Part shown: piece after piece, positions 950-8,418 of the stretch | How the letters are laid out: every line of letters starts with the position of its first letter | Numbering within the stretch: the first letter of the stretch is position 1 | IMG/VR virus record: IMGVR_UViG_3300022602_001772 | Location: 1 to 35,091 of that record | Strand: one strand, 5' to 3' | From: a virus | Length of the DNA stretch: 35,091 bases | The notes under the pieces: generated by a model | Databases searched by the model: none | What the model was told of the DNA's origin: nothing | What the model saw: the letters and a program-made list of their open reading frames with translations, nothing else | Position numbers and translations under genes: made by a program

Positions 950-1258
950 AGTCCCGGTTTACACTTTTACGTTAATACAAAGTGGGTGAGGCAAGAGACC
1001 AGAGTTGCCAGGTGCTTATGATCTACCTTAGAGTCCCTCATTCGGGAGCCTGAAGAAATCATAGGGCAGAGCATTAACTGTCCAAATACATAAACATGCG
1101 GTACGGATACCAAGCCCAGTCTAGGGTTGTCGGGAGGCAGTAGCTAGACACTTTATTAAAACATATTAGAATCTGTAAAAAGATCAGGTTTGGTATCCCA
1201 GTCACTGCGTTCGGCATAGCCCGCATACTTAATACACCTTAATATGTTTTAATAAAGT
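950..1258 (+). ncRNA. candidate structured RNA of about 300 nt in the tRNA array
   Basis: This 309-base gap between tRNA-Thr and tRNA-Gly has no convincing ORF but many paired segments. Successive hairpins are 962-967/979-984 (CACTTT/AAAGTG), 990-994/1005-1009 (GGCAA/TTGCC), 1018-1022/1058-1062 (ATGAT/ATCAT) enclosing 1034-1037/1044-1047, and 1064-1069/1078-1083. A 12-bp helix can form between 1105-1116 and 1187-1198 with one G-U, enclosing hairpin 1119-1124/1144-1149. A 20-bp perfect inverted repeat pairs 1149-1168 with 1240-1259, and this crosses the 12-bp helix like a pseudoknot. I see no tmRNA, RNase P, 4.5S or group I intron core motifs. The orientation is assumed from the flanking tRNAs. 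Confidence 0.5.
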
Positions 1259-2896: not shown

Positions 2897-2926
2897 ATAC
2901 AAATACTAGCAAAACAGGAGCGAGAA

Positions 2927-3118
2927 ATGGCATTTAAAGTTTTAGGTAAGACACAAGACTTGTATCAAGGATACGGACCCTTGCCAAAATTGGAAGGCCC
3001 GTTTCTAGTCAATGGACGTATATTGTACTATGATCCACGAGAAGGCAAGTATTGGGATCCAAAGACTGATTTTTATGTTCCGCACGATGAATATTTTAGA
3101 TTGGTAGGTTTGCTGTGA
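2927..3118 (+). CDS. small protein of unknown function
   Basis: A 63-residue protein, first gene behind a perfect sigma-70 promoter with a CAGGAG ribosome-binding site. It is rich in aromatic residues and Gly/Pro (GYGPLPKLEGPF, RILYYDPREGKYWDP), suggesting a compact beta fold. There is no membrane segment or catalytic motif. The DPREGKYWDPKTDFYV stretch resembles a repeated Asp-Pro/aromatic pattern. Its stop overlaps the start of the GIY-YIG-like gene by four bases, so the two are coupled. I do not recognise the family. Confidence 0.75.
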   Translation: MAFKVLGKTQDLYQGYGPLPKLEGPFLVNGRILYYDPREGKYWDPKTDFYVPHDEYFRLVGLL

Positions 3119-4171: not shown

Positions 4172-4515
4172 GCTTAGATGTAGATTTAATGGTCACTCAA
4201 CCCACTAGTGTGTACAGCGCAAACATTACACACAATTTGGGTCGGATGGCTCAAGAGGTAAAAGTAGGTATAGGTGCTAAGATAGACCTGTACACTATTT
4301 TGTGGCGTCCTGAAGAACTTAATTTTAAGTTTGCCAGGCACATCGCAGACTTGTTGGACGAGGGCTGGAATATACTGTTAAGTGATCCAGAGAAGTTCAA
4401 GAAGTTTAATCCTGAAAATGGATGGGGTAGCTACGAAGGACTTTGCGACTTTGTCTACAAATACCGTAACGCCTGTTGGGATAATCCTGACGCAGAATTG
4501 AGTATATCACGATGA
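4168..4515 (+). CDS. conserved phage-type protein of unknown function
   Basis: A 115-residue protein. The ATG at 4168 overlaps the preceding stop (ATGA) and is preferred over an upstream TTG. It begins with a DVDLMVTQPTSVYSANITHNLGRMA segment. Later it has LYTILWRPEEL, a helix (FARHIADLLDEGWNILL) and an aromatic C-terminus. It is predicted soluble with no enzymatic motif that I can name. Position and coupling place it in the early operon. Confidence 0.72.
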   Translation: MSLDVDLMVTQPTSVYSANITHNLGRMAQEVKVGIGAKIDLYTILWRPEELNFKFARHIADLLDEGWNILLSDPEKFKKFNPENGWGSYEGLCDFVYKYRNACWDNPDAELSISR

Positions 4516-4679
4516 AAATTAAATTTGATAAAGATACCATGCCCGATCATTTGTACAATACGCTGTTACAGCATTTTGTAAACGAAGCGGTTGGGCTAGG
4601 TGTGGAAGTAAATAAGTTTACCCAGTTTGATAATTGGGTAGTTGAATGTGAAGTGGATGTAAAAGAGTCAGTTCATTAA
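4512..4679 (+). CDS. very small protein of unknown function
   Basis: A 55-residue ORF starting with an ATGA overlap at 4512 and ending at TAA 4677-4679. The sequence begins MKIKFDKDTMPDHLYNTLL and has a beta-like end (NWVVECEVDV). Mixed charge, no motif. Coupling to the upstream gene and the 19-base gap before the strong ribosome-binding site of the next gene support translation. Unknown function. Confidence 0.6.
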   Translation: MKIKFDKDTMPDHLYNTLLQHFVNEAVGLGVEVNKFTQFDNWVVECEVDVKESVH

Positions 4680-4698
4680 CTTAAGAAAGGAGGCGAAT

Positions 4699-5304
4699 AT
4701 GCCAAGTGTATTCTTAGTAAGCGACACGCATTTTGGACATACTGGCGTATGTCGCTTTACACGTAACGATGGTGTTACAAAACTACGTCCATGGGACTCA
4801 GCTGATGAAATGGACGAAGCAATGGTTAAGGCGTGGAACGAACGGGTAAAACCCACTGACAAGGTCTATCATTTGGGCGATGTTGTCATTAATCGTAAAG
4901 CGTTAAAAATCTTATCAAGACTTAACGGCGACAAAGTTTTAATTCGTGGTAACCACGATATCTTTAGAGACGACGAATATCGTATGTACTTTAGAGAGCT
5001 TAGAGCTTATCATGTTATGAACGGTATGATCCTTAGCCATATTCCTGTTCACGCAGAAAGTCTTGGACGTTTTGGTGTTAACATTCACGGACACTTACAC
5101 GCAAATCGTGTTAAAAAAGCCCGTGGAGTAGATGCTAGAACTGGAGAAGTTTTATACAGCGATGAGAACGATGTTCGTTACCATTGCGTTTGCGTAGAAC
5201 AAACCCCAGACTTTGCGCCTATCTTGTTTGAAGATGTCATTAAGAACATCGAAGCAGAAGGCGGATCAGTAGGATTTAAGAACGGAAACGGTCCTACTAT
5301 GTAA
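4699..5304 (+). CDS. calcineurin-like metallophosphoesterase
   Basis: A 201-residue protein with the complete dinuclear-metal phosphoesterase motif set: SDTHFGH (D9, H11), LGD (D61), GNHD (N85, H86, D87), SHIP (H114) and HGHLH (130-134). The length and order match the small bacterial and phage phosphoesterases that act on phosphodiesters or phosphoproteins. It is cytoplasmic, with no signal peptide. An unusually strong Shine-Dalgarno sequence, AAGGAGG, sits seven bases before the ATG. It is the last gene of the early operon and is followed by a strong terminator. The substrate is unknown; roles in RNA end or nucleotide processing are known for relatives such as T4-type phosphatases. Confidence 0.9.
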   Translation: MPSVFLVSDTHFGHTGVCRFTRNDGVTKLRPWDSADEMDEAMVKAWNERVKPTDKVYHLGDVVINRKALKILSRLNGDKVLIRGNHDIFRDDEYRMYFRELRAYHVMNGMILSHIPVHAESLGRFGVNIHGHLHANRVKKARGVDARTGEVLYSDENDVRYHCVCVEQTPDFAPILFEDVIKNIEAEGGSVGFKNGNGPTM

Positions 5305-7648: not shown

Positions 7649-8418
7649 TTAAAGGCAAGCCATTCATTGATTTACAAGACTATGTAAATCTTGTCGGGTA
7701 CGATAAATTACATACAGAAATTTCTAGAGGAATAGCTACGGCAAAACATTTAGGTATAAATGGCCTTCAAATGTACCATCCTGGAACTGTAAGACCACAC
7801 GCTCAGGGTATTGAAATAAAATCATTATCGGAAGCGTATCGACATTGGAAAGAATTACCTGAGTACGACCCAGTAAAGATTGGCGGTAAGGATTTATCGT
7901 ATAATCAACTAACAGACTATTTAAAATACGCTGTTGGCGCATACGATTTTTATCTTGTGTTTCGTGTACTAGATAAAGAATATAAAAATAAAAGTGTTGG
8001 AGAATTAGGCGAGTACTTTCCTAACCTAGTAAAATTTATTGAAGGATTAATCCCAGCTGGCGTATTTAAAAGTCTACATAGCGCAACACTGATGGCATTA
8101 GATGCCGGAGGAATACCTTGGGAACATTATGATCCCGAGAACCCGGTAACAGAACTATTTGATCCTAACGATCAACACTTTAGTGAAATAACAGAATTTA
8201 TTCATATAAAAACTGATTGCGATAGACCTTTCTATGTTATCGATCCTAAATCAAATGAGAAAGTTTATGTAAACACTCGAGTAGCATGGTGGGACGAAAG
8301 AGATTGGCACGGTGGAGAACCTATCAATCGTCCAACCTACACAATAAAAATCAACGGTCGCTTTACTGACGAGTTTAAAAAACTGATTGATGTAGAAGGC
8401 TACGAAAATGAATTATAA
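7645..8418 (+). CDS. 2OG-Fe(II) oxygenase-like protein, DWHGGE family
   Basis: A 257-residue protein with a paralogue at 17577-18380. Shared landmarks are EYFPN..K..E (about 123-133), an iron-binding HxD (H161, D163 in WEHYDPE), EFIHI (185-189), and NTR.AWW followed by DWHGGE with the distal ligand H222. A strand and then GRFTDEF end the fold. The pattern HxD...H on predicted beta strands fits a cupin-fold 2OG oxygenase. The residue expected to bind 2-oxoglutarate is Lys (YTIKI) here but Arg in the paralogue (YGLRI). The start overlaps the previous stop (ATGA). The substrate is unknown; I know no named family with the DWHGGE motif. Confidence 0.6.
   Translation: MIKGKPFIDLQDYVNLVGYDKLHTEISRGIATAKHLGINGLQMYHPGTVRPHAQGIEIKSLSEAYRHWKELPEYDPVKIGGKDLSYNQLTDYLKYAVGAYDFYLVFRVLDKEYKNKSVGELGEYFPNLVKFIEGLIPAGVFKSLHSATLMALDAGGIPWEHYDPENPVTELFDPNDQHFSEITEFIHIKTDCDRPFYVIDPKSNEKVYVNTRVAWWDERDWHGGEPINRPTYTIKINGRFTDEFKKLIDVEGYENEL

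Follow-up and report, generated by a model that had tools for sequence, protein, structure and literature searches.

A pseudoknotted candidate noncoding RNA and an exchangeable stem-loop cassette between two tRNA genes of an uncultured aquatic phage

Two modules in a gap between tRNA genes

What fills a long ORF-free gap in a viral tRNA array, and does it fold as one RNA? The virus contig IMGVR_UViG_3300022602_001772, which we analyzed over its whole length of 35,091 bases (the window), has two tRNA genes separated by a 309-nt gap at 950 to 1258. The original prediction had read this gap as a single 300-nt RNA, in which a 12-bp helix crosses a 20-bp inverted repeat downstream of consecutive hairpins. 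No ORF of at least 60 amino acids overlaps the gap on either strand, as had been stated, and several short hairpins do lie within 955 to 1083. The features to which we refer are as follows.

874 to 949, + strand: tRNA-Thr(tgt), found by ARAGORN; upstream neighbor and likely 5′ processing boundary
950 to 1152, + strand: module A, conserved structured RNA core of about 200 nt, matched by model R1
1105 to 1116 with 1187 to 1198, + strand: 12-bp helix of the original prediction, present in the window, not conserved
1149 to 1259, + strand: module B, hairpin cassette with complementary arms and compensation (stem 1149 to 1168 with 1240 to 1259, core 1169 to 1239)
1259 to 1332, + strand: tRNA-Gly(tcc), found by ARAGORN; downstream neighbor and likely 3′ processing boundary

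By folding energy, the gap region has only a mild advantage over shuffled sequences (z = −1.97 on the + strand and −2.40 on the − strand), a weakly informative result. Comparison with relatives, which were retrieved through three neighboring proteins without use of the RNA itself, shows that the structure in the gap is not due to chance and that it is unlike the one drawn earlier. When the gap sequence was used as a query, approximately positions 953 to 1169 (module A) and 1146 to 1258 (module B) matched separately, often at different places on one contig. An iterated profile then added one fragment and 28 distinct A sequences that are complete or nearly so. The window is matched by model R1 at 947 to 1173 (156 bits, E = 3e-45) and is itself one of the 29 sequences from which the model was built. 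By this comparison, the gap consists of two modules and not of one fold, module A ending near 1152 and module B being a separate cassette.

Both helices of the single-fold model can be drawn on the window sequence, where they do cross: the 20-nt arms at 1149 to 1168 and 1240 to 1259 are 100% complementary, and in the 12-bp helix every position is paired (11 Watson-Crick pairs and one G-U). The 20-bp repeat is kept by compensation in relatives. The 12-bp helix is not conserved. Among contigs that carry both modules, all 12 positions of the A segment pair with the B core in the window and in L244, against 11 in L058 and 10 in L094, a series confined to the window's subclade; the remaining carriers pair at 7 to 9 of 12, which is background, and 97 A sequences outside the subclade reach a mean of 8.7 and a maximum of 10. 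The B side of the helix is near-invariant, and its A side fits only in the small subclade, where it decays without compensation. A close relative, L291, has the same GGATACCAAGCC in A as the window and carries a C cassette instead of B. The helix also needs bases that belong to conserved local structure in both modules. It appears to be at most a contact of one lineage and is more likely a chance complementarity. Since A is found without B and B without A, and since the 12-bp helix is unconserved, we rejected the single 300-nt fold defined by the crossing as highly improbable.

A chain of pseudoknots in module A

RNAalifold alone recovered two hairpins of module A, the 3′ one among them, and 10 of their 17 pairs showed compensation. 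Reading the alignment led us to propose a fuller structure, which includes four crossing helices. It consists of the following nested stems and crossing helices; of the latter, three are firm and one is probable.

962 to 967 with 979 to 984, + strand: stem P1; 94.6% of cells paired, 6 of 6 pairs changed on both sides
990 to 994 with 1005 to 1009, + strand: stem P2; six pairs changed on both sides across the family, register in the window set by eye
1016 to 1022 with 1058 to 1064, + strand: stem P4; encloses P5, every pair changed on both sides
1034 to 1037 with 1044 to 1047, + strand: hairpin P5; inside P4, every pair changed on both sides
1064 to 1069 with 1078 to 1083, + strand: stem P6; found by RNAalifold, with compensated pairs; base 1064 can be assigned to P4 or P6
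1119 to 1124 with 1144 to 1149, inner stem 1126 to 1130 with 1137 to 1141, + strand: terminal hairpin P7; from pair counts and RNAalifold
955 to 956 with 970 to 971, + strand: PK1 (probable); crosses P1
985 to 987 (GGU) with 998 to 1000 (ACC), + strand: PK2; crosses P2
1010 to 1013 (AGGU) with 1025 to 1028 (ACCU), + strand: PK3; crosses P4
1071 to 1074 (GCAU) with 1096 to 1099 (AUGC), + strand: PK4; crosses P6

We scored this structure in two sets of sequences, against versions in which the partners were slid or shuffled. In the 29-sequence set, which is unbiased in that it was fetched without any RNA pattern, 77.9% of pair cells were formed, compared with 37 to 42% after sliding, and the covariation score was 0.381, compared with 0.09 to 0.13 in the slid and shuffled controls. 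The 108-sequence set, which leans to the nested helices because part of it was fetched by a 3′-hairpin pattern and all of it was aligned with a nested-helix model, gave 79.4% against 35 to 47% (slid) and a score of 0.414 against 0.05 to 0.12 (slid and shuffled). In both sets the structure is favored over its slid versions to the extent that it was derived from the tested sequences themselves. P7 was paired in 99.3% of cells, with changes on both sides in 8 of 11 pairs, and the unpaired bases of the module include highly conserved positions. Compensating changes are thus found in relatives, and their covariation, which is strong beyond the controls, indicates that module A is a conserved structured RNA.

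The crossing helices were examined by a swap test that uses no alignment columns and compares the pairing of a segment to its own partner with its pairing to partners taken from other sequences (2,000 swaps), in 77 sequences of <85% identity and 22 sequences of <70% identity. The z values of nine control segment pairs ranged from −2.2 to 3.3, a sign that the test is somewhat inflated by relatedness. None of the 2,000 swaps in either set equaled the native pairing of PK2 (z = 8.1 at <85% and 4.0 at <70%), PK3 (8.3 and 5.1) or PK4 (11.0 and 6.6). PK1 gave 0 of 2,000 and z = 5.8 at <85% identity; at <70% its z of 0.9 was not significant. The swap test argues firmly for PK2 to PK4 as three H-type pseudoknots and makes PK1 a probable fourth. 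All four lie inside A, and none is the crossing of the original prediction, which was right in expecting pseudoknots and drew other ones.

No Rfam model matched A, B or the diverged second copies of A described below, at gathering thresholds or at permissive E-values, so we set aside a known Rfam class for A. A description of A was likewise not found in the literature, most subscription papers and preprints being outside the scope of that search, which makes it weak evidence. The suggestion of a new structured RNA has held up so far: judged by its structure, A seems to represent a new class. In kind, it falls among the orphan structured RNAs of phage tRNA arrays, which include GOLLD, ROOL and the T4 RNAs C and D and for which we know of no established function.

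GOLLD and ROOL are ornate, pseudoknotted phage RNAs that occur near tRNA islands and whose function is unknown (PMC12286853). Module A is also phage-borne, pseudoknotted and close to tRNA genes; the original prediction had noted the likeness in position and the difference in size. At about 200 nt, A is much smaller than GOLLD, often >800 nt, and the solved ROOL of 659 nt (PMC12286853), and it does not match the Rfam models of either. One A copy shares its tRNA array with a GOLLD RNA, found by Rfam search at 1706 to 2168 of L099.

The T4 rnaC and rnaD genes (species 1 and 2 RNA) also encode small stable RNAs in the tRNA cluster of a T4-like phage, beside tRNA-Arg. At 139 and 119 nt they differ from A in length, and rnaC ends in a tRNA T-arm-like sequence, which A does not. 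With filters off, R1 had no significant match to either gene, the best hit in the T4 region (6.7 bits, E = 0.05) lying outside both, and we rejected homology for lack of a match in sequence or structure. The genome position of A is compatible with a stable RNA from a tRNA-containing transcript, as for rnaC and rnaD.

A chain of several pseudoknots is also the plan of tmRNA. A shares this plan with tmRNAs, including the permuted ones (RF04321 and RF01850), and cassette B occurs in permuted phage tmRNA genes. A differs in that it lacks a tRNA-like domain and matches no tmRNA model, and ARAGORN found no tmRNA in the window.

Exchangeable cassettes in the 3′ stem

In A copies without an abutting tRNA, a long stem often starts from the conserved end CACTTTA and closes right before the next tRNA. 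The sequence of this stem varies and its complementarity is kept (own score 28.7 versus 17.8 for swapped partners, 0 of 2,000). Among 121 copies listed, it held D in 23, C in 18, B in 4 and two cassettes in 8; the tRNA abutted in 22, and 46 were other or unclear, all counts being motif-based and approximate.

In the window the cassette is B. Its bases 1149 and 1259 are shared with P7 and with the first base of tRNA-Gly, respectively, so that 19 bp are free for the B stem. The core of B is near-invariant and its stem covaries. Most A relatives lack B or carry it elsewhere, and B is found at other sites, after tRNA-Lys, tRNA-Leu and tRNA-Thr and between the halves of permuted tmRNA genes. The comparison indicates that B is a separate, exchangeable stem-loop spacer.

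In the permuted tmRNA genes, B sits between the 3′ and 5′ halves and caps the acceptor stem (L231 at 4495 to 4887, L251 at 7665 to 8077, L253, L259, L233, L234, L235 and L238). Two-piece tmRNAs of aquatic phages are already known (PMC9004378); a description of a B-type spacer in them was not found in the literature. In L265 (8376 to 8604 and downstream), B links A to the 5′ part of a permuted tmRNA and has lost most of its stem pairing, which looks like the result of recombination within B.

The window holds a further cassette, D, at 121 to 252, in the gap between tRNA-Ser(tga) and tRNA-Trp (stem 132 to 140 with 234 to 242). D is 90 to 94% identical in relatives and was found at 59 loci. A D variant in the 3′ stem of A in other phages holds the T-arm-like GGTTCGATTCC. 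That the cassettes are exchangeable, and that one of them doubles as a spacer in permuted tmRNA genes, suggests that noncoding-RNA modules recombine in phages much like protein genes do.

Distribution, genomic position and possible role of module A

An IMG/VR scan with a pattern derived from P7 gave at least 120 matches. In all, at least 137 distinct matches to module A were found, of which at least 121 score at least 80 bits. R1 matched 13 of 20 long viral contigs, mostly with one copy each; the T4-type capsid gene gp23 was present in 14 of the 20, and both occurred together in 8. None of 50,697 phage records matched in blastn searches with four module A members, so the phages that carry A are apparently uncultured, and tblastn searches with two neighboring proteins, aimed at isolated phages with A, gave distant parvulins or nothing. 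In cellular genomes, one exact-pattern scan was empty and another gave a single match, on a 3-kb contig binned with a cyanobacterial MAG (L294). On it lie the 3′ portion of A and a tRNA called Pyl(cta) by ARAGORN (2361 to 2451 and 2909 to 3011), and it is probably a stray phage contig. The window itself has an unusual gene content for a phage between 5403 and 28350, with an Mtd_N protein, two TauD-type dioxygenases and four radical-SAM proteins, one of them with a SPASM domain.

In 120 of 120 cases among the matches listed, A and its nearest tRNA share a strand, which argues for a role at the RNA level. Of 91 full-length copies with an upstream tRNA, 56 start a few nucleotides past its CCA; 15 kinds of tRNA are represented, with Thr(tgt) preceding 30 of the 56. 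The other 35 lie at least 87 nt from the upstream tRNA, so tRNA maturation cannot generate every 5′ end. The 3′ end of A is within 14 nt of the next tRNA in 22 copies among the matches listed, and tRNA-Gly(tcc) is the most frequent downstream tRNA. These positions fit the release of A by tRNA-processing enzymes.

Conservation, strand, position, covariation and cassette exchangeability are directly supported for A. We think it probable that T4-like aquatic phages make A as a stand-alone noncoding RNA, cut from a tRNA precursor, and that its role is most likely that of a trans-acting scaffold. It would be transcribed inside the tRNA array, its 5′ end coming from 3′ maturation of the upstream tRNA and its 3′ end from RNase P acting at the next tRNA, or alternatively from cleavage, perhaps by RNase III, of the long 3′ stem around the spacer cassette, here B. 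The released RNA would fold as a chain of H-type pseudoknots followed by the conserved hairpin. That its target is the translation machinery is a tentative suggestion, drawn from context: the tRNAs, the link of B to tmRNA and the reported binding of GOLLD to ribosomes in pull-downs (PMC12286853).

Some of the same observations would also suit a cis-acting spacer or processing element, which would part tRNA precursors, present them to RNases and then be degraded. A is always accompanied by tRNAs on one strand, often flush with it, and its long 3′ stem resembles a double-strand processing site. However, other gaps in the same arrays are only 5 to 30 nt long and have no such element, and A is mostly single-copy, adjoins many different tRNAs, sometimes from far away, and keeps conserved unpaired bases, all of which makes a cis-acting role unlikely. 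A decoy or inhibitor of host defense, directed for example at an RNase or a tRNA-cutting nuclease and made together with phage tRNAs that replace the cut ones, is less likely still. What speaks for it is context, namely the tRNA arrays of large phages and a fold whose compact knots would withstand nucleases, but neither a defense gene nor a target has been identified, and an arms-race factor would not usually be so highly conserved across divergent phages. A trans-acting scaffold remains our preferred reading of A, which would add to the orphan RNAs a widespread one that is small enough to synthesize, probe and solve and which offers a testable structure along with many natural compensatory variants.

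Weak second copies of A (20 to 55 bits) occur on some of the same contigs, in L203 (14226 to 14448), L140 (8022 to 8242), L222 (3207 to 3420), L117 (2221 to 2434), L111 (8013 to 8234), L197 (5086 to 5334) and L183 (9396 to 9617). They look like a diverged sister family of A, seemingly built on the same plan. On a broader and rather doubtful view, A and these copies would form a superfamily of multi-pseudoknot phage RNAs that acts in trans on ribosomes or tRNAs, with cassettes B, C and D shuffled among tRNA, tmRNA and A transcripts as a modular noncoding-RNA toolkit of T4-like phages.
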